64,000 bases of DNA. It comes from Auriscalpium vulgare (Eukaryota > Basidiomycota > Agaricomycetes > Russulales > Auriscalpiaceae). The position numbers and the translations under genes were made by a program. Location of the stretch: assembly GCA_019915015.1 (NCBI GenBank), contig JAHBBC010000049.1:62001-126000 (forward strand). Direction: 5' to 3'. Of the stretch, positions 29,982 to 42,695 are shown one piece after another. Numbering within the stretch: position 1 is the stretch's first letter; each line of letters opens with the position of its first letter. The notes beneath the pieces were generated by a model that saw nothing but the letters and a program-made list of their open reading frames with translations, had not been told where the DNA came from and ran no database searches.

Positions 29982-29986
29982 ATATT
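29982..29986. repeat. Candidate target-site duplication ATATT (left) of the Harbinger element
   Basis: ATATT directly abuts the left inverted repeat and recurs at 33375-33379. Because the flanks also pair as CAATATT/AATATTG, a 3-bp duplication (TAT) with slightly longer inverted repeats is equally possible. Confidence 0.55.
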
Positions 29987-30054
29987 AGGGGAGCTCAGAG
30001 TAGACCGTTTTCGTTTCCGTTTCGTTTTCAAACGCCTTTCGTTTTCGATTCGGC
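29987..30054 (+). repeat. Left terminal inverted repeat of the Harbinger element (68 bp)
   Basis: Reads AGGGGAGCTCAGAGTAGACC and continues with a T-rich tract of CGTTTTCG/CGTTTC units, ending ATTCGGC. It is the exact reverse complement of 33307-33374; homology stops at both inner edges. Confidence 0.92.
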
Positions 30055-30139
30055 GCCCCGGCGTGATATTACATAATGTCACTCAATCTACGCCGCTGCG
30101 CGACACCGCCGCCATTGCTTTCGAGCTCTTCCACCAGCC

Positions 30140-31463
30140 ATGGCCCGTGCTACCTACCACGATGAGATTATCGACGCATACATCACATATATGGCTATCC
30201 AGATGGCACTCATGCCTCCATCTTCAGCCACAGCTATGATGGAGCAGCTCCAACGCGATAGCTCAATCCTTCACACCATCCTATCCTCCCGCTACATCAA
30301 CCCCCGTCCTCCCGTCGTTAAAGCCGGCAATCTCCAGCTTGCATGGGAGTATGCACAGGATCCTGCCCATCACCACCGCTTTATCAACATGCTCCGTGTC
30401 TCTCCCCACGTCTTCGACACTATCCTTGGCCTCATCGAGGGTCATCCCGTATTCCAGAACAACTCGAACACCCCGCAGGAGGATATCCGAACGCAATTAG
30501 CGGTGACCCTGTACCGTATGGGTCGCTATGGCAATGGCGCATCTCTCGAGGATATCAGCCGTGCAGCGGGCTGTTCAGAGGGCGCTGTGGAGCTATACAC
30601 GGAGAGATGTCAGGAGGCGCTGATGTCCTTGCATGGGATGTTTGTACGGCCGCTAACAGAGGAGGAGAAAGAGGTCGAGAAAAGGTGGATTGATGAGCAG
30701 CTTGGTTTCACGGGATCCACCTGGAGGGAGGGATGGGTGATGTACGACGGGACAATTGTTGTCCTGTACAGTCGCCCCGGCCTCGACGGTGACGCGTACT
30801 ACACAAGGAAGTGCAACTATGGGTTCAACGTCCAGGTATGCTGGATATCTTCTAATAGCTCCTGACTGACATATCTGTACACAGATTGGCAATACACCGT
30901 CGAATCTACGAATCGTTGACTATTCGCTTGGCATGACCGGTTCTGCTCATGATGCATCTGCATTTGAGCATACTGCAGCTGTCAAGCATACCGACTGGTT
31001 CTTCAGAGGTGACGAGTTTGCATGGGGTGACTCTGCGTACCCTGTCAGCTCGCGGACCATCCCAGTTCACAAGAAACCAGCGTCGTTAGACCGCTCAAAT
31101 GCCTTATTCGACAAACACGTAGCTCGCCTACGCGTTCGCTCTGAACACACCATGGGTGCACTCAAGGGCCGATGGCAATCCCTTCGTGGCTTACGGCTCA
31201 ATATCCGTTACAATCGGGACCATATACGAGCGTGTCGGTGGATTTCATGTTGCATCATCTTGCACAACGCAGTGCTCGACATCGAAGGATGGGCGAGTGG
31301 GACAAGCTTTGCGACTTGGCACTCACGTGCTCAGGAAGAGGACGATAGGGGGGAGCCAGATGATCCTATAGATGATGATATCACAGAGGATGATGATTGC
31401 GAGGCTAGGAGACGTGGCCTTGTGGCAGAAATAGTAGCCGCTCAACGAGCAGGACTTGTATAA
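30140..31463 (+). CDS. Harbinger-type DDE transposase (DDE_Tnp_4 superfamily)
   Basis: Catalyses cut-and-paste movement of the surrounding element. Two exons (30140-30835, 30885-31463) give 424 residues. The N-terminal part holds a helix-turn-helix-like stretch (QLAVTLYRMGRYGNGASLED then ISRAAGCSEGAVELYTERC). The catalytic domain shows D1 in WVMYDGTIVVLYSRPGLDGD, D2 in GMTGSAHDASAFEH, GDSAYP, and the acidic E in RSEHTMGALKGRWQSLRGLR. This is the usual D...D...E layout of nuclease-derived HARBI1-like proteins. A strongly acidic tail (DDPIDDDITEDDDCE) ends the protein. No frameshift or premature stop is seen. It converges on the accessory gene about 115 bp downstream. Confidence 0.9.
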
Positions 31464-31578
31464 ATGAACAAGATTAAATCTGAGATTGTAAAGAGTAAGA
31501 GAGATATAATCAGAAAGAAGAAAGGACTGTGTAGCATTAAATGAGAGGCTGCAGTTAGAAAGGACAAAAGCAAAATGA

Positions 31579-33175
31579 TCAGACTAAGCCTCGCTCCAAC
31601 TCGTCTGGAACCACAGATGATCCTCGTCCAAGATCTCTGTCCAACTGGCTCTCATCCCAGGGAGGACTATTTTCTCTCTGGCTTGTCATCTCGCTCTCGG
31701 GCTCATCATCCGGAGGTGTCGATGCGCGCGGCAGAGATGAAGGCGTCGATGCAGCGGTTGACATAGAGCCCGTGCGTGAGATGGAACGAGCGGGCGTAGC
31801 GGCGGCGACAACCAGAGGAGGATTCTGAAGGCGCGATATATTTTCACGGAGATCTTGAAGCTGCAGCTGAAGGTCATCGTCAAGTGCTTCCGACTTGCGG
31901 CGATACTCATCGTTCGTCCACAAGCCAATCTGCAGCTCACGAAAGAGGCGGTCGTGGCGATCGCGAGCGTCTTGGCGAAGACTATTCATGTCATCGCGCA
32001 GCCTGTCGACAGCTTTGCGGATGTTCTCTTCCTTTGACACCGCAAAGCTACGCCTGCCACATGAATTAGTCCACGTGCATTACCAACAACTAGTATTACT
32101 TACTCGATGGACTCCTTCAGTATGTCTTGAATGCCGGTGCGTGACGTGGGCTTGAAGCGACCCTTCAAGCTCTCCAGCTTCTCTTCCGACAGGTGTGCGG
32201 GAGTCTTCTTCGCACTTGCTTGCGACGAGGGCGGCACGCGGTTCTCTTTGGGAGTGTGTGGCGTCTGCGGTGGCGATCCCGGGCCGGGTGCGGTCGCAGA
32301 AGAGTCTTGCGCGAGAGGCGCCGGGCCATCGTGAACGCGTAGGACGGGGTCTATGTCCTCTTCGCGCGGTTGCCGCACAGGTGGCGCGTCGTCGGGAGGC
32401 TGATAGTGCACTGTGCGGTGACCGTCCGGACCAACCCCAGTCGTGATGATGATCGGGTTTTCATTTGGGCGGGTGGCAAGGATCGCGTGAATTCGGGGGA
32501 AGACAGCGAACTCGGCCTCGATCTCCTCTGCACAGGATGTGTTAGCCTCCAGCGTGCTCATCGGAGATCACAAAATGAACTTACGCCAGATATTCTTGTG
32601 GCGTGCATCGGTATCCTCGGATGGGCCATCTGGCCCTATGTAGCAGACCAAATACTCATCTGGACCATCGTCGGCATCACCTGTGTCGACGATGGCCTCA
32701 TTCCCAGTGAGGACACCTCCACCCGTGCACTTAATGCGCCGAACCTTGGAGTGATAGGTGATGCGTAGCCTACACAAGCCTGTGAGCACGTATGAGGCAT
32801 CCAATAAGGGTATGGACATACTGATTTATTTTCCCGAGCACCTTTGCTCCCAGACTGACGAAATCCGAGTCCGGAGCATCCTTCCAGAGGATGCGAGCAA
32901 GCCGCTGACCCGCTGCGACCTTACTTTCTCCGCTTTTCTTCTGGAAAGATGTCAGTAACAAAGCCCAGATGATGCGTGGGCCACCTGCATACCTCACCAC
33001 GCTTGTTACCAAACATAACCTTGCGATTTTGCGGCTGTTCGAGCTCCGTGATGAGCTGCAGGAGCAGCTCATTTGGCTTCTTATTTGTGCCCCAGCTGAT
33101 GTTCTCCTCACGGGATTTCTTGCCCGGAGCTGTCTCAGGCTGGTCGGAGTCCGAGCGGCCGCGTTTCCGGGGCAT
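31579..33175 (-). CDS. SANT/Myb-like accessory protein of the Harbinger element
   Basis: Second gene of the element. Start MPRKRGRSDSDQPETAPGKK, then a predicted SANT/Myb-like helical domain, WGTNKKPNELLLQLITELEQ ... RKVMFGNKRGE spliced to KSGESKVAAGQRLARILWKD. Middle exons hold ITYHSKVRRIKCTGGGVLTG and an EEIEAEFAVFPRIHAILATR segment. The C-terminal third is a likely coiled coil (SKEENIRKAVDRLRDDMNSL ... LQLQLQDLRENISRLQN) and a Ser/Pro-rich tail. In Harbinger elements the SANT partner brings the transposase into the nucleus and onto the terminal repeats; I infer that role from position and fold-like pattern. Four introns. Family membership is moderately certain. Confidence 0.75.
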
Positions 33176-33306
33176 TAAGAGAGTAGGAGAGTGTAGATTA
33201 AGGAGGTATCGCGAGGGAATGAGTGTGTGAGACACGAAGACGCCGCACAACGCGAGCGTCACCTAAAGTCACACGATTGTCACACATCGGGTCACTTATG
33301 CCGCGG

Positions 33307-33374
33307 GCCGAATCGAAAACGAAAGGCGTTTGAAAACGAAACGGAAACGAAAACGGTCTACTCTGAGCTCCCCT
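33307..33374 (-). repeat. Right terminal inverted repeat of the Harbinger element (68 bp)
   Basis: Exact reverse complement of the left repeat, ending GGTCTACTCTGAGCTCCCCT and followed by ATATT. Confidence 0.92.
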
Positions 33375-33569
33375 ATATTGAGTATTAGCTTTGTGGATAA
33401 TGGAGTTATATCAAGCATTGTGATTAGAATTGAGTTAGTTCCGATAGAAAGTAAAAAAAGGCGTGCCTGATAACCTCACAACGTCGGCAGGATTGTCATA
33501 GACGCCCGAAGAACGAGACTTTCCACGCGGTCGTGTTGCCATTGGTCTACAGTATAGATCAGCCTGGAC

Positions 33570-33578
33570 GAAGATACC
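33570..33578 (+). repeat. 9-bp target-site duplication GAAGATACC (left)
   Basis: Immediately precedes the left 349-bp inverted repeat; the same nine bases in the same orientation follow the right repeat at 41142-41150. Confidence 0.9.
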
Positions 33579-33927
33579 TAGACTCGTTCCCAGTCCGCTC
33601 GCCGGCGATGCTTACCTAACAAAAGACAAAAGAGGACGCGAGCCTGCGAGCGGACTGGGCCCACCTGTCGCGCTTTTGGCGGGACGCGATTTCCCCCCGC
33701 CATTCCACCAGCCTCGAAAGTCGAAAAAATCGTCTCTAAGTTGGTATATAGAATCGCATTTTCTAGCCCGTCTCTACAACTTTGAGTATATAAGTTTTTC
33801 GGAAATTTCTGACAGTGAGGGCGCCCGACTTCGAGCAAGCGCCAGCAGGCTTCGCGTGGGAGTTTCCACTTCGCCGTCGCGCAACTGGCGCCCGCGCTCG
33901 ACGACCCTCTCCCTCGTTCCCAACACC
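33579..33927 (+). repeat. Left 349-bp terminal inverted repeat
   Basis: Starts TAGACTCGTTCCCAGTCCGC and ends CTCGTTCCCAACACC. Read by eye it matches the reverse complement of 40793-41141 throughout, with no net insertion or deletion. It contains a 13-bp subterminal hairpin and a TATATAAG sequence. Confidence 0.93.
33589..33659. repeat. Subterminal hairpin in the left inverted repeat
   Basis: Arms CCCAGTCCGCTCG (33589-33601) and CGAGCGGACTGGG (33647-33659) are perfect reverse complements separated by 45 bp. The mirror copy in the right repeat occupies 41061-41073 and 41119-41131. It could be a transposase recognition palindrome. Confidence 0.85.
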
Positions 33928-33991
33928 CGCACGGTGCTCCTTGCTCACATAGGGAAGTCTTTGGAACCATATGACTGATTATCTCTCTTTT

Positions 33992-36900
33992 CTAACCCCC
34001 TTCTTCACTATCTACATCTGTATTGACATCTAGACCTGCAACACCATCATCACCCTCGGAGTCCGTTGACTGCCACTCATCTGCGTCGTCTGAATCGAGA
34101 CGGAAAGTGTCCATGTCAAGTGCAACATCATTCTCTCCCTCAAGACGGAGGCCATTTGTGTTGGTATGGCTGCTGCTATCAGTGTCCGAGGTTTGAGTGC
34201 TCGAGTCGGAGCCTGGGTTGCTGACGACATCTTCCCAATCCCCAACGTCAACATCATGGTCGCGCACGAAAGGAAGGTCGGCCGCGTTCGGAGGTATATC
34301 GCCGTGAGGTGCACCGGGTGAAGGGGACGATGTGGTAGGCACTGGCGCAAGGGACGATGCCGGTATGTCATCCGGCTCTCCAAGCAGCCACTTGCCCATC
34401 TCTGATTCAGGATCCAAGGCCTCGAGGAGCTCCGACACAGGCTTCAGCTGGCGGCGCGCACGCGCTCGTTCAAGCTGTGCATTGAACTCCGCAAGAGGGT
34501 TGGTGCCCGACCCGTGTACAAGTGCTGCATGGCCCATGGAAAGGGCGTCGACGGCGGGTTTCTCGTCGGCATCGAAGACGCGTCCCTCTTTGACAACGTA
34601 GACTTCATGCTCCTTCAAGCTTTGCATGATTGCAGCTATGTCTTTCTTCAAGTCCGGGTGTGTATGGTGAGTCCCTTGGTGTGCGCCAATCTCTGCGTTG
34701 ATAGAGGCAGCCAGGTGTCGCAAAACATCGATGCAAGGGGCCACCATGGCAAGCCAGTCCCATGAATGTGCATCGCCGTCGGCCTTGTACACACGCTGGA
34801 CGTCTCGGTTGGTCACCGCCGTCTCCCCTGTAAGCAAATTCACGTACCTTTATCCAGAAGTTGAGATGTTCTTGCGCTAGATCAACCTCGACCCACGCGT
34901 TTTCCTTCCCTGTTGGATTGATCAACCAGTTCTTGATCACAATATCGCTGGGCAAGCACAATTGGCATCAGGAGAAGATTCATGTGAGGTATGTGCGACA
35001 GCATACCGAAATTCGTCGGGCCATACATTGACCAAGTTATGGATAATGTGTAGCATCTCGTGCGCGTATTTCGAGCGTCCGTTACCTCGAAACGCGAACG
35101 CCCATAGCTTCAGTACAATGATTACCGGGCCCGAATCACCAGCCTTGATGGTGTCCGCGAACATTCTCGAGAGCAGCGCGTCCCGATTGAATAGTACGGC
35201 GTTCTCGTAGACCATGTCACCAGCCTGAACGTGCCCGGCTGGTGCAGCTGCAGCATCTGCCTGCTTATCGGGTGCTGCAAGCGGGGTGGCGGTTGTTTCA
35301 GTTGCGCCGGGTCTTACTTTACTTTTCCGACTCTTCGCCGCCTTAGCCTCTGCTGCGGCTGCAGACTCTCGACGACGTTCCTCCGGGATCCGCCGCTCAC
35401 GTAGCTCTTGTACGAAGTCCGCGTCAGTGTACGTGCGATATATTGACCGTGCATGGTGGACGAGGAGTGTCCACGATTCGGTTGAGTCAGAATATTCAGC
35501 GAGTGACTCCTTGTTGGATACCAGGAGCAAGCAGTGTAAAATGCGCCCATACAGCGATACCATGACAAGGTCGCGGCATGTTCGGAAGTTGGGGAGCGAC
35601 GTGAGGACAATGGGTAGGCGATCCAGAACAGTGTTATGGAATGCAAGGCCGCCAGGGCTACGTGTACCGGCGTTCGGCTTCCCGAAGTGAAGTTCCAAGA
35701 CTCCTTGACAGTCCGCAATCTTCGCGTGGAACAGACCAGGCATAAGAACGACATGCTTCCATGACTCCGTCCCGTCTTCGTGTCCCAGGCGAATCATTAG
35801 GATAGCTCGTTGACGCGCTATCGTGAGTTGATCGCCTGCGACAATCTTCGCGTACTTCACAAAGTCCCCGCTCTTCATGCTCAACTCGAGCTCAGAGTAG
35901 ATGGCCTCCAACACTTCGATGTTGCCCACAATCGACGCCTCTTCAATCTCCATCGCTGGCAAGGGATAGATGTCCGTGGTATGGATCGGTATCTTGTCCG
36001 CCGATGCTGGCTGACTGGCACTTAGTTCCTTTTCCCACTTCTTGAAACCGTCACCACCATGCAAGACAATGATGCGGAGGATGGTGTGAATCATGCATTG
36101 GTCAAGGAGAGTTGACTCGGCGTCGGTGAGTTCCAAATCTTCAATTGAGAGTGGTGGCGCGCTCATGATGCACTTATCGATCTTTGCGGTGAGCATTTTG
36201 TCAAGCGCAGCCTCGAAGAGCCGAAAGATTGTAGCGCATGTCCCATTCTCTTGCGCATCTACATGACACGTGTAAGTGCAGGTCATTGGTATCGGCTTCG
36301 AGGCTCACTCTTCCTGCCGAGGATCTGTTCAGCAACACGGAACATCAGGTTGATGTTGTCGTACACCGTGAAGAACAGTCCGACGGAAGCAACGCGACGA
36401 GCATCCATGCGACACGACTGTGACAGCTCCCACAGCGCACCTGCGCGGTACGTCCGAGCCTGCTTCTTTGTCCGCTCTGTGCTGTTCGGCTCTACAGGTG
36501 CTTCTATGACGCTTTCAATCCCTGCCATTGGGCGTACTATTTTATCTGCCTCCGACTCAGTATGTGGAACCTGTCGACAACGCGTCGTACCGGTAAGTTC
36601 CATGATCCATCATTCGAGTTGCGATAAATGCTTACGGTCAATCCCAGTTTGCGAAGATTCCCTGGTGCAATAATGCTATTGTACCCCGAAGACACTCCCA
36701 TGGCTCCGAGTACGCTGAAGTGCTGGCGCTGCGCACCGGTGGCCATAAGATAAGTTCCATGGACGACACCTGGATAGCTGTTTTGCATGCTCCGCGCCTT
36801 CAACAAGGCCATGACTGCCGAGCCCTCAACCTATGTAGAGTTAGCTGAACATATTCAATCAGCTCCACCGTGATCGTGCGTACCAGTTCTTTCCGGTGCC

Positions 36901-38000
36901 AGCCTCTCGCTGACAGCCCCTTCTTAGCATGAGCCTGACGGATTGTTGTGGAGAACCCGCGAACAATCTCAAACATTGATGGCGCCAGTGTGCGCAGTTT
37001 CCGGGTGAGTCCTGCCAGACTGTACGCCATGAAGAACGATCGGTTCACATCGCGTCCTGTTGTACGCAGAATCCCGCGCCGCGTGATTTCGGCTGCCTCT
37101 CTACGCACCAAGCGCTTGGATACAGAGACTGCCCAGTCAAATATTATTGCGCGGGAAGTTTTTGGGTAACTCGACGTCGTCCAGTAGTTGAGGATCTCAA
37201 CAACCTGTCGCTTTCTCTTGAAGAATCCAAGCCATCGGTGATCAACTGCTATACCTGTAAGTTGCGCCAGAAATTCGTAGCTGTTACAACTCACCTGCGA
37301 GTCGGTTCTTAGGGTTGAACACATACTCTAGCAGCTCAACAAGCACATATCCCCTCGCAGACAGCTGCGCTAGCAGGTTCTCGAAGAAATCGTTCCGGTC
37401 TTCCTCCCTCGCGACAGATTCTTCTAGGGCAAGTCGTGCCGCTTCGTTAGCGGCGTCTTCCTTCTGACGCTGGATGGTCGCAGCTCGTTTGACTGCTCGT
37501 GCAGTAGACTTCACCATGCGGACTTCATCCGGGGTCGGCACATCAGGTGTGTACGGAGCAGCAGGTTCTTCGAAAGTAGGTGCTGCCGGTGCTGATGAGC
37601 TTCGTAGGTGGCCCCTGCGGTGCAGGCGCTGCAATGGACGTCTCTCGGGACTCGACAAGGGATCCCTTGCGGGCCGCCTCACAAAGAGCTGCTGCGCCAA
37701 CGGGACTCCTTCCGATTCAGAGGTGTCCTCGATAAGCCGGCGCGTTGCATCCGCCGATGCAAATCCTCGACCACCAGCAAGAAGCGCTGCAAGAGGGTTT
37801 GCCTGGCCGCGAATATTGATTGCAGGAAGGTACAGAGGGTTCTGTGTACCTGCTGTGGGCTGGTACAGTGGCTCGCTGCCCGAGGATGAGTTGGGCGAAG
37901 GAATGTCGGATGGTGGTAGGTTCTCGATCAGATTGTCGTGGTCAACACTTGTGCTGACCTCGGAGGACAGGATGCGGAGTCCTCGGTGTCGGGATGCCAT
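33992..38000 (-). CDS. DUF6589-family protein, putative transposase of the 7.6-kb element
   Basis: A large protein, about 1,150 residues over eight or so exons. The start at 38000 (MASRHRGLRILSSEVSTSVD) leads a Ser/Pro-rich region, a Lys/Arg/Glu-rich helix (VKRAATIQRQKEDAANEAAR) and ARGYVLVELLEYVFNPKNRL. Middle segments are QVVEILNYWTTSSYPKTSRA and FFTVYDNINLMFRVAEQILG followed by ENGTCATIFRLFEAALDKML. Then VAGDQLTIARQRAILMIRLG, VVLMPGLFHAKIADCQGVLE, LAFHNTVLDRLPIVLTSLPN, LKLWAFAFRGNGRSKYAHEM, and WVEVDLAQEHLNFWIK. I recognise this order as the fungal DUF6589 family, for which I know no assigned function. The tail is acidic. D (YDNIN), D (GDQLT) and E (QEH) might form an RNase-H-like triad; this is inference from position within a transposon. 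Confidence 0.78.
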
Positions 38001-38086
38001 CGAAGGGCGGAGCGGGTGCGGTGGTGGGCTGTGGCGCGATGCCGCACATTTAGGAGCCACTCCTCTTGTCACTCTCACACTCACAC
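38001..38086. promoter_or_regulatory. 86-bp bidirectional promoter of the element
   Basis: The DUF6589 gene (start 38000, -) and the helicase gene (start 38087, +) diverge from this short interval, so both must be transcribed from overlapping control sequences. It includes ACTCTCACACTCACAC, a pyrimidine/CA-rich tract just before the helicase ATG. Confidence 0.55.
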
Positions 38087-40790
38087 ATGTCGTCTATACC
38101 TCCCAATCTCACTGCCCGGCGTGTTCATCCTATTCAACGCCAATCGCCAGTCGGCACCCGTCACAAGAGAAAGCGTGCCAACAGCGTCGCATACAATGCT
38201 GTTAAATTATCAGCGGCTCCTCTTACCGCCGATGAAAGCACTGCGCGAGTGGAAGAACTCAAGTTACTTCCTGGTTTGATCAAGGCAAACTTCAAGAGCT
38301 GGACTGCCGGGGCAAAACCATTTCAACTCGAGGGCATCGCGGCGCAGGTCCTCCGACACGACACGATCATTCATGCCGCTACAGGTGCGGGAAAGACAGG
38401 CATCATTGCAGGTCCGCATCTCCTGCCGTCAAGCAAGGGGAAAGTCACTCTTGTGGTTTCGCCATTGATTGCACTGCAAGACGAACAGGTATCACCGTGT
38501 TCACGCAATGCATATCCCGTGTCTGATCTTTTTTCCCCGCTATCCTCAGGTTGCCACGTTCAAGGACGAGTTTGGCATGGCCGCTGTAGCTATCAACAGC
38601 TCGCATGGTGGGTGCACTATAGACAAGTTGAAGGTGAGCTCATTCAAGAGTACCACAACGAGCCCATCTCTTACATGTCCGGCCAGAAAATTGTGAATGG
38701 TGACTGGCAGATTGTCCTGCTCTCACCGGAGATGCTTCAGTCCAGGCGCTTTACCGAGAACGTGCTTCGCAAGAAAGTGTTTGGCTCGCGCTGCCTATCG
38801 GTTTTTATCGACGAGGCTCATTGTGTTTCGCATTGGGGAGCCTCCTTCCGCAAGAAGTACGGCACCGTCGGTGTCGTGCGCGCATTCCTCCCGAAGTCGA
38901 CACCTTTCATCGCGGTGTCTGCAACCATGACCTCACGAGTGCGGCATGACATCGCACATAAACTGCAATTCCACCGCTCGGACTACATCTACATCAATAC
39001 TGGCAACGACCGACCCGCAGTCGCGCAGATTGTCCGCGCCATCGAGCACCCCCTGAACACATTCGCCGACCTCGACTTCGTCATACCGGCGCGTCTCACC
39101 CGGATCTCGGAGATACCGAAGACATTCTTGTATACAGACGACATCCAGGGCGGCAGTCTCATTGTTGATTACTTGAATGGGCGGGTGTCCAACGAGTTCC
39201 AGAACCTCGGGCTCGTACGCCCGTACAGTGCTGCAATGTCAAAGAAGTATCGTCGGGATGTCATGAAGTTATTCTATGCAGGTATTGTCCGCGTGCTTGT
39301 GTGTACGGACGCCGCCGGAATGGTGAGCATCTGGATGATTAGACGATTCGGTATCGCTGATGAATTTCAGGGATGTAACATACCAGACATCGACCTTGTT
39401 GTACAGTGGAAGCTACCACCGTCGTTAAGTGCATGGGTGCAGCGTGCCGGTCGAGCAGCCCGCGCTCCTGGACGATCAGGGAAAGCCATCCTCCTCGCGG
39501 AGAAGTCGGCATTTGAGGTTGACCCGTGCGGAGCAATACCTGAGGCAGCGATCAGCAAGCCTATCCGCGGGTCGAAGGTAAAACAACGGCGGCTTCGGAA
39601 ATCCGCAACATCGGCCGCAAAACGCGGTCGCGTATATGCTGTCCTACATGGGCAGCTCCGAGGTTCTATGAATGCGCAGCACGACGCAGTGGAGGTCCGC
39701 GAGGAGCCCCAACTCGTAGACGAAGCACCTGGAGAAGGTTTGTATGCATTTATTCAAACAACTGTTTGTCGTCGAGATATTCTTGTCAAGGTCTTTGAGA
39801 ATGACCGGTCAGGTATTTGTGTCCCACGAAGGATAGCGAGTGTCTGCTCACCCGAGTATACAGATGTTCCGAAGGCGCAATGCTGCGACCTCTGCAACCC
39901 GACCCTTTTCAACGGTCTTCGGGCCGGTCAACCACCGAAGCTCGGGCGCAAAAGAAATGCGAAACGTGGCGAAGCCGATGAACATGTGCGCGAACGCCTT
40001 TTCGCCTGGCGACGAGCTGTGAAGAAGTCAAAATATCCTCGCGCACGGTGGGCCCCACACGCAATCCTCGATGACGACACTTGCGAGTTGCTAGCAAGTC
40101 TCGTTATTGACTCCATCGACAAGCTTGCCGGTCTTCTCAAAACGTCTTGGGCATATTGGGACACTCTCGGGTCTGACCTCTTCGAGCTCCTGTCGCAATC
40201 GTGCGCAGTCAACAACACGGACCACGACGATCAACAAATTCAAGACATACCGGCACCCAATCTGGTCCGCGAAGATCCTGACCTCAGACAGAACAAGCGG
40301 GCACGTCGTGCCATACCCACGGAGATACGGAGTGCGGCAGACTTGCCGGCGTATGACCACATCGAGTTCATGCCGCCAAATGTCATCGTGAAACCCACGA
40401 CCCCAGACCAGAACGAGGGTCCCAAGGGCGACCAGAACGCCGTCAAATATGTCTTCATGCCCCTGGAAACATTCGTGGTACCAAATTCTTTGGCACCCGG
40501 TGCACTCAGTGCGAGCGCAGCAGAAGGAGCACGATCTGACCCACCTGTCGCAACTGGCTCGAAGCCGCGTCCACGGCGCGTTCACCCGACTCGTAAAACA
40601 CCCTACGATCGCCCTTTGGACAGCTCCGAGGCCCATAGCGGCCGCAGCAGGGCAGTGTCGCAAGAAATAGCTCCTGTGGTGCGTGTCTCAGCTTTCCTGT
40701 GTCAAATAAGAGATGATATGAGCTAATTTCCTGGTTCAGGGTCACTTCATGGAGGTGCCCGAGCATCCTGAGCTCCAAATGCAGGAATGA
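38087..40790 (+). CDS. RecQ-like superfamily 2 DNA helicase of the 7.6-kb element
   Basis: Start MSSIPPNLTARRVHPIQRQS. The helicase core has FKSWTAGAKPFQLEGIAAQV (Q-motif-like), Walker A HAATGAGKTGIIA, LVVSPLIALQDEQ, the DEAH box FIDEAHCVSHWGASFRKKYG, motif III FIAVSATMTSRV, VLVCTDAAGMGCNIPDIDLV (after splicing) and motif VI WVQRAGRAARAPGRSG. DEAHCVSHWG is the RecQ-type box. A downstream Cys-containing segment (PKAQCCDLCNPTLF) may bind zinc. The uninterrupted frame is deceptive: introns at about 38490-38550, 38637-38689 and 39324-39370 are needed to keep motifs in register. A last intron (about 40681-40739) gives the C-terminus GHFMEVPEHPELQMQE and a stop at 40790, two bases before the inverted repeat. 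No RQC or HRDC domain was recognised. Confidence 0.82.
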
Positions 40791-40792
40791 GA

Positions 40793-41141
40793 GGTGTTGG
40801 GAACGAGGGAGAGGGTCGTCGAGCGCGGGCGCCAGTTGCGCGACGGCGAAGTGGAAACTCCCACGCGAAGCCTGCTGGCGCTTGCTCGAAGTCGGGCGCC
40901 CTCACTGTCAGAAATTTCCGAAAAACTTATATACTCAAAGTTGTAGAGACGGGCTAGAAAATGCGATTCTATATACCAACTTAGAGACGATTTTTTCGAC
41001 TTTCGAGGCTGGTGGAATGGCGGGGGGAAATCGCGTCCCGCCAAAAGCGCGACAGGTGGGCCCAGTCCGCTCGCAGGCTCGCGTCCTCTTTTGTCTTTTG
41101 TTAGGTAAGCATCGCCGGCGAGCGGACTGGGAACGAGTCTA
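40793..41141 (-). repeat. Right 349-bp terminal inverted repeat
   Basis: Reverse complement of 33579-33927. The inner edge is sharp: sequences diverge right after CCCAACACC. It ends GGGAACGAGTCTA, then the 9-bp duplication. Confidence 0.93.
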
Positions 41142-41150
41142 GAAGATACC
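41142..41150 (+). repeat. 9-bp target-site duplication GAAGATACC (right)
   Basis: Direct copy of 33570-33578. A perfect pair at the exact ends of the inverted repeats shows insertion by a cut-and-paste-type integrase leaving 9-bp staggered gaps. Confidence 0.9.
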
Positions 41151-41309
41151 TCCTGAGCGGAGGAAACGAGGACGCCGTAACAAGCATGGGTAACTGGAAT
41201 AATGATACGGAAACTTCCCAAAATTGATTGAAGCAAACGGTACAAAGTTCTTGGCAACGGAGACGCGAATCGCAAGTGTCGGCCGTGGCGCACTGAGTAG
41301 CAAAAGGCC

Positions 41310-42400
41310 TTAACTCCCGCCTTGGCCGCCAAAGGGGCGCAATGAAGGCGCGTTGTCTGGTGGTCTTGGCGGCGATTGGCGACGCATGGAGGGCGGCGGC
41401 TGGGGCGGTGGGAGGTGCCCGGGGTATTGCCCCGTCATGGAAGAGCGAAAAGGTAGGTCGGGTTCGGTGATGGAACGTCGATGCGGATACGGCTGGGGCT
41501 GGGGCGTCTGCCGCTGGGAATGGTGCATCTGCATTTGCTGTGCCTGTGGCGAATGCTGATGCATGTGGCTGGGATCGGGGGACGTGAAGGCGGCCTGCGC
41601 AGGATAAGAGAAATGCTGCTGTTGGGGCTGGGATTGCTCTTCGCGGGGATCGCGAAGCGGGTAGCCGCCGCCGGCGGCGTAGGCGTCTGGCATAGGTCGG
41701 TCGGGAGGACCGGCATAAGTTTGCGCGCCCTGAGGCACGGAGGGCATGTACATGGAGCCGGGGAGAGCGCTGCGGGACGACGAGGCGACGGGGCCGGGGT
41801 AGGAGGAGTACGCAGGCTTGTGGGTAGCCACCGCACTGCTTAACGGATAGCCGACGGAGGGTGGCGACGCATGAAGAGCCGGTTGGGGGTCGTCTTCCCC
41901 CATCAGCATGGGTTGATCCCAGGTGCCGCCAGCGCCGCCTTCAAGGCTGTGAGCGGAGTGGGGAGAGGGACGCATGGGGGCCGTAATGGTCGTCGGCGAT
42001 AGAGAGTGGGCGCGTGTGGAGGAAGGCGAATCAGCGGAGGAGCTCTCGCGGCTGAAGGTCTCCAGCGAGCCCGATGCCATGCCGGGGCCACGGGAGGAGG
42101 TGGGGGTTGGGGGTGCCCCCGGCTTGGGTTTGTCCTTGCCGGTGGGACCCTTTCCCAGCGCGGGCCTGTTCGCGGGGGGGAGGCTGAGGGCAGCGCGGAG
42201 GGTGTGGTTCTCCTCCTCGAGCTCAGAAACGCGCTGCTCGAGGGCCTGTGCGGGGGATGTGAGTGCGGGCGGGGGGCGGGGGTGCGGGGCGGGCGTACCT
42301 CGAGATGGGCTGCTCGACGCGCGCGGAAGGCGCGCTGGACATCTCTGGCACGGTTGGGAGGGAGATTATCGTTGCGTTTTCTGCCTCTTTTCGACGACAT
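41310..42400 (-). CDS. bZIP transcription factor with atypical basic region
   Basis: A nuclear DNA-binding protein of about 345 residues in two exons. Exon 1 (42400 to about 42300) gives MSSKRGRKRNDNLPPNRARD then VQRAFRARRAAHLE. After a 52-bp intron follows ALEQRVSELEEENHTLRAAL and LPPANRPALGKGPTGKDKPK. QRAFRARR followed by heptad leucines identifies a Yap-like basic-leucine zipper. The Asn expected eight residues before the conserved Arg is Ala in this alignment; an Asn lies two residues further upstream. The rest is disordered, Pro/Gln/His/Ser-rich (HMHQHSPQAQQMQMHHSQRQ, PPPQPPPSMRRQ), typical of activation regions. The 3' end lies 168 bp from the DUF6589 element. Confidence 0.8.
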
Positions 42401-42695
42401 TCGCGGGGGGATGTCGAGGCAGAGGGCGGCGCAGAGTAGAAATGATGGGTGCGGGGGTCATGCGACACATAAGTATAAGAAGGAATATTGAGGACCGTGG
42501 CCGAGGGGCGCTAGGCTATTGAATCTTTGTTAGCCGCGTTTAGACGCGTCGATCTCGAGGAACTCATGGGCCAGGCCGCCCAGCGGGTTCGACCCTCTTT
42601 TTGGCGCACCGACCGCGTCCCCAACGACACCCCCAATGTCACAAAACAAAACATCTCATTAATTGCGACCATCAGTCCCGTGTCTAGTAGGCACC
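42401..42695. other. Spacer between SSL2 stop and bZIP start
   Basis: 295 bp between two minus-strand genes; it should contain the bZIP promoter. Nothing else recognised. Confidence 0.4.

Follow-up and report, generated by a model that had tools for sequence, protein, structure and literature searches.

AcademH is a group of DNA transposons that was reportedly defined by Kojima in 2020. It is described as the helicase-encoding lineage of the Academ superfamily, reported from fungi, where Basidiomycota, Ascomycota and Mucoromycota have it in low copy number (PMC10799480), with a helicase and with target duplications of 9 or 10 bp (PMC10045372). The RecQ helicase of Academ had been reported earlier (PMC3627910), and the recQ-type helicases of fungal Academ elements have been annotated mistakenly as host genes (PMC6416283). 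Putative non-autonomous Academ elements have been reported in Marasmius oreades (PMC8290104); as far as consulted, PMC8290104, PMC12210899 and PMC12411881 add nothing on the proteins. Here we describe a block of 7,563 bp (positions 33579–41141) in a 64,000-nucleotide stretch, the window, of a contig of the mushroom Auriscalpium vulgare (JAHBBC010000049.1, here C49). We think it very probable that this block is a DNA transposon, most likely of AcademH, in which a DUF6589 protein is the predicted DDE cut-and-paste transposase and a RecQ-like helicase is a likely helper at the ends. Reading the two genes in this way gives a role to both families. It also calls for caution, as such pairs should not be taken for host genes or for expansions of RecQ repair helicases.

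The transposon and its independent insertions

The element is bounded by inverted repeats of 349 bp, the left one at 33579–33927 (plus strand), beginning with TAGACTCGTTCCCAG, and the right one, identical to it, at 40793–41141 (minus strand). The inverted pair found there spans 350 nucleotides with 100% complementarity (33578–33927 and 40793–41142), and it is reduced to 349 bp because its outermost base, a C before the element and a G after it, belongs to the target duplication. The 9-bp duplication read from the sequence, GAAGATACC, lies at 33570–33578, and a perfectly matching copy follows the element at 41142–41150. These dimensions had been given in the original prediction, as had the two genes, and both were confirmed, the first from the sequence and the second by matches to Pfam PF20231, DEAD/Helicase_C and recQ_fam. 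In the seven element frames scanned with Pfam, only DUF6589 and helicase domains exceed the cut-offs, and the further open frames of at least 80 amino acids inside the element all overlap the two genes or the repeats.

The pairing of these genes recurs along the 51.6-Mb genome. The 43 matches to DUF6589 were merged to 24 loci, in which contig C14 and C49 are entered as two, though they are the same locus. At 18 of the 24 a RecQ-like helicase is found within 20 kb, always on the opposite strand (18/18), for a chance expectation of at most 3.2% per locus. Four of the pairs are divergent like that of the window (C14 and C49 both counted) and 14 are convergent; at the other six loci no helicase match lies within 20 kb. 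Conversely, 19 of the 40 helicase loci are close to a DUF6589 locus, and among those away from it is the sole match above the recQ_fam cut-off (on C11), which is probably the host RecQ. In other fungi, 8 of 38 NCBI-named DUF6589 relatives agree in species and contig size with a helicase relative, one of these contigs being of 5,792 bp in Hygrophoropsis aurantiaca; the pairs were made by eye among the best 120 matches listed per protein, with equal size taken to mean the same contig. The named relatives of both proteins are, among the matches listed, from Agaricomycetes, and in mushroom protein sets such proteins are annotated "hypothetical protein" or "P-loop containing nucleoside triphosphate hydrolase protein". 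For a gene neighbouring the element in the window, the top match with a species name comes from Bondarzewia mesenterica (44% identity), likewise one of the Agaricomycetes. No relatives were found in viral contigs.

At C20:906387–910040, a tandem duplication (1.83 kb, 99.9% identity) covers the element's left end together with part of its helicase. At C37:273368–282872, LTR-like direct repeats of 1486 bp (99% identity) stand 8 kb apart between the DUF6589 and helicase parts; the 11-kb interval between the C37 genes thus holds this nested LTR-like element and no evident cargo.

A search of the genome with the inverted repeat, which had been expected to give further full copies, gave one other full-length pair, at C14:135413–142973. 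C14 and C49 (window 32550–42554) agree over 10,005 bp, both flanks included, with 0 mismatches and 6 gaps. This identity through both flanks means that C49 is a redundant contig there; the C14 copy was therefore rejected as a second insertion or a proof of mobility, being the same locus assembled twice.

Evidence for movement comes from independent insertions. The ends were examined at 10 distinct DUF6589 loci, with 13 of the 24 loci outside this sample. Eight of the ten elements end in TAG...CTA and are flanked by a 9-bp duplication, which is perfect in seven and has 8/9 matches in one: GAAGATACC in the window, CGGTAAAGT on C20, GTCGAGACC on C7, GACTTTCTG on C23, GTGCGCGGC at C2:1773037, GGCTGGCGC on C51, CCCAGCAAG at C19:563149, and GGAATCTGC/GGAATTTGC, with one mismatch, on C6. 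At the C2:1553k and C37 loci no ends were found in the stretches examined. In a control scan, TAG ends that matched each other and enclosed a 9-bp duplication turned up in 5 of 6 same-locus pairs versus 0 of 30 cross-locus pairs, and no duplication appeared at 6, 7, 8, 10 or 11 bp (0/6 at 6, 7 or 8 bp).

Ends of the same type also bound short non-autonomous copies. A 17-base end pattern, with at most one mismatch allowed, has 66 matches in the genome versus 12 for the reversed pattern. From these 66 matches 12 candidates were taken, 11 as facing pairs and one from a single end, and 11 of the 12 have a 9-bp duplication, which is perfect in 10 of the 11 facing pairs. The copy found through one end (C2:100512–100641, 130 bp) has ACTATTCTC on both sides, and two facing pairs on C1 and C9, each of 2,133 bp and with identical end sequences, are flanked by different 9-mers. 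C25:574407–574790, the facing pair that has no duplication, was rejected, its flanks matching at 3/9 positions, and C1:2696991 was rejected as a copy, being an 82-bp palindromic end with flanks that lack a duplication. At C4:2217377–2217896, two non-autonomous copies of 254 and 257 bp are arranged in tandem, and the 9-mer GAGCAAACC occurs on both outer flanks as well as at the junction of the two copies, which could be due to repeat insertion or to recombination. Over the 18 resolved duplications, 11 of the 9-mers start with G and 12 finish with C, so that CTAG is often formed at the junctions; this bias, uncorrected for base composition, is possibly a weak target preference.

Uninterrupted sites were searched for in the same genome by joining the flanks of 16 insertions with one 9-mer kept. 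At least seven of the 16 gave an uninterrupted match across the join, six of them near-identical and the seventh weaker and gapped. For DUF6589 loci the sites are on C28 for the C6 element (98%), in three places for C2:1773037 (99%), in a satellite array with more than 100 uninterrupted units for C51 (up to 100%), and on C13 for C19:563149 (81%, gapped). For non-autonomous copies they are in 15 places for C20:700373 (100%), in two for C1:613365 (99%) and on C93 for C3:1034184 (100%). The other nine insertions, including the window element, gave no uninterrupted site among the matches listed (40 of 74 candidates scored). These sites demonstrate precise insertion, not excision. As for the satellite, the C51 element (C51:91034–96755) sits in the array, whose units recur on C26, C27, C52 and C56, and the query of that search as a whole gave at least 530 matches.

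A two-gene unit with opposite strands, TAG...CTA ends and 9-bp duplications thus recurs, far diverged, at independent places. The original prediction had named as support different 9-bp flanks at other copies, empty orthologous sites in related strains, and DUF6589 genes elsewhere with long inverted repeats and RecQ neighbours; this genome shows different 9-bp flanks, uninterrupted sites of its own, and DUF6589 genes with inverted-repeat ends and RecQ-like neighbours.

The predicted transposase and its likely helicase partner

The DUF6589 gene is on the minus strand at 33992–38000, with an ATG at 37998–38000 and a stop at 33992 as read from the open frames, and has about seven exons with short introns. 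The exon pieces were placed by tblastn with homologue P0004, each of the seven matches lying inside a single open frame, and the exon joins are approximate. Two minus-strand frames match Pfam DUF6589 (PF20231), with E = 8.9e-103 and 7.1e-10.

Structure models were obtained for two DUF6589 homologues, the main exon of the window protein being a row in both alignments. The first model gave only a weak match with Foldseek alone (best E 0.03), and a second homologue was therefore modelled. For both models DDE transposases (Hermes, P element, Transib/RAG1) are top-ranked and the top 16 rows are all DDE recombinases; a family missing from these lists is not thereby ruled out. Identity with hAT (Hermes) and the P element is 6–11% in the structural alignments. 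Like Hermes and the P element, DUF6589 is predicted to combine an RNase-H-like core and an inserted domain made up entirely of helices. The fold suggests a catalytic role for the Asp of a YDNIN motif (codon 36358–36360, minus strand) and for that of a GDQLT motif (codon 35831–35833, minus strand; 85/85 in alignment A1). The probable catalytic Glu, pointed to by the ends of the aligned ranges in the fold matches, is in a QEHLN motif (codon 34869–34871, minus strand; 43/45 in the same alignment). The predicted triad corresponds to D275/D450/E721 in homologue P0004, and all three motifs occur in the window element; E629 was rejected as the catalytic Glu, since 4 out of 5 diverged elements in the alignment have another residue there. 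In the literature searched, DUF6589 is mentioned in no paper and PF20231 in four on unrelated subjects, and nothing consulted ties DUF6589 to a transposase. To that extent, the enzymatic role predicted here is new.

The helicase gene (38087–40726, plus strand) is taken from the first ATG of the open frame 38054–40726 and is divergent from the DUF6589 gene. This frame, which runs on through short introns (located by visual comparison with homologue P0182), matches Pfam DEAD and Helicase_C. Its recQ_fam match, with E = 1e-31, is under the curated cut-off of that model, and the nearest solved chains are those of WRN, RecQ and RECQ5. We call it a RecQ-like helicase of superfamily II.

Hairpin ends and possible mechanisms

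A hairpin lies in the outermost 85 bp or so of each end of the window element. The left one (33589–33659, plus strand) has a perfect stem of 14 bp formed by 33589–33602 with 33646–33659, and the right one (41061–41131, minus strand), of the same sequence, has its stem formed by 41118–41131 with 41061–41074. None of 200 letter shuffles reached a 14-bp stem. In 15 of the 24 ends tested, the stem was reached by at most 4 of 200 shuffles. The diverged C7 and C51 elements have stems of 8 to 10 bp at both ends. The nine ends lacking a stem beyond chance are both ends of C19:563149 and of C23, the left end of C2:1773037 and four non-autonomous ones, and the hairpin therefore belongs to part of the element group only.

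Within the window group, the stem sequence varies from element to element, and a single element can carry different versions at its left and right ends. In eight window-group ends, selected for carrying the stem, Watson-Crick pairing holds in 111 of the 112 stem cells, the remaining one being T-G. Six of the 14 stem pairs have changed on both sides (5 distinct rows), which 1 of 500 shuffles reached, a figure that is not a probability, since the rows are related. When one partner is slid by 1–3 columns, 18–52% of the cells are paired versus 100% unshifted. End hairpins maintained by compensatory base changes in part of the group are, together with the predicted role of DUF6589, what is new here. 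They bear on the question of why a DNA transposon carries its own RecQ helicase.

Concerning the mechanism, the DUF6589 transposase would pair and cut both ends of the element and join them to the two target strands at positions staggered by 9 bp; gap filling by the host would then give the 9-bp duplication. The end hairpin may be a structure that is read by the transposase or opened by the helicase during excision or repair. In our opinion, it is conceivable, as a tentative extension, that DUF6589, a family present in many copies in mushrooms and without an assigned function, is the transposase of a hairpin-ended superfamily in which the element's own RecQ-like helicase and the folded end stem act together as a single machine. 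Conservation would then concern the structure of the stem and not its sequence, and the stem would be opened or read as the element transposes. The hairpins might instead be a by-product of two inverted transposase-binding boxes per end that do not fold in the living cell. Such a possibility, which we hold to be less likely than not, fits the nine ends that lack a stem beyond chance, but the window-group stems differ in sequence with their pairing kept, and this would not be needed by a fixed binding box.

We consider rather improbable a replicative copy-and-paste route, in which the helicase would be the replication engine and DUF6589 would merely join the ends. The maintenance of the opposite-strand helicase at 18 of the 24 loci and the C4 tandem, with its same 9-mer at three positions, would agree with it; however, no Rep/HUH or polymerase domain was found by Pfam in the seven frames, and the predicted DDE-type fold together with inverted-repeat ends is the usual cut-and-paste set.

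Comparison with known transposons

The window also holds an adjoining transposon at 29986–33375, with perfect inverted repeats of 69 bp, a TAT duplication at 29983–29985 and 33376–33378, and a DDE_Tnp_4 domain in 30870–31463 (E 2.1e-22). We take it to be PIF/Harbinger-like.

For the DUF6589 element, the main alternative in classification is a superfamily distinct from Academ that joined a DDE transposase, a RecQ-like helicase and 9-bp duplications independently. The likeness to Academ rests on descriptions, not on sequences, and no relevant paper was found on DUF6589/PF20231. Moreover, RecQ helicases are reported to have joined transposons repeatedly, as in KolobokH, a DNA transposon of fungi whose RecQ helicase lies downstream of the transposase domain, and in a red-alga Kolobok whose helicase is encoded on the complementary strand (PMC9587614). 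Nevertheless, AcademH and fungal Academ as published agree with our element in the type of helicase, the length of the duplication and the fungal host, and we regard independent assembly as unlikely. The redundancy of C49 would speak for an artefact of assembly, or for two host genes that happen to lie within an ordinary inverted repeat; this reading is already refuted by the independent loci, their different 9-mers and the uninterrupted sites, and may be dismissed.

Kolobok elements duplicate TTAA (4 bp). The present element shares with KolobokH the fungal host and a helicase of RecQ type, and it differs in having its genes on opposite strands and varied 9-bp duplications instead of TTAA. Mutator-like elements (MULEs) have long inverted repeats and a 9-bp duplication, both of which are shared here; none of the seven frames scanned with Pfam has a MULE transposase domain above the cut-off, in agreement with the original claim that neither protein is MULE-like. 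Helitrons encode a Rep/HUH protein and make no target duplication, whereas our element has no Rep/HUH domain in the scanned frames and does have a duplication. The hAT (Hermes) and P elements are the best fold matches of the models, with their RNase-H core and all-helical insertion, and to our knowledge neither carries a RecQ helicase. The hAT elements usually give 8-bp duplications, with further groups at 5, 6 and 7 bp (PMC12730594), whereas window-type elements duplicate 9 bp in every resolved case.

AcademH remains the closest system, in a comparison made on descriptions in citing papers. Those descriptions, as far as consulted, mention neither the DUF6589 identity, nor two gene orders, nor end hairpins with paired changes. 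The likenesses are a helicase beside the transposase, of superfamily II/RecQ type in the window element, duplications of 9 bp, within the 9 or 10 bp of AcademH, a DDE-type transposase, here by predicted fold and conserved D, D and probable E, and a fungal host. The original idea is supported as regards the recurrent mobile unit, the predicted DDE fold of DUF6589 and the helicase as a partner. The claim of a new class is not supported, since AcademH had already been described with a helicase, 9–10-bp duplications and fungal hosts. Every AcademH feature tested fits, and the element is therefore filed as most likely belonging to the AcademH lineage and not to a new class.
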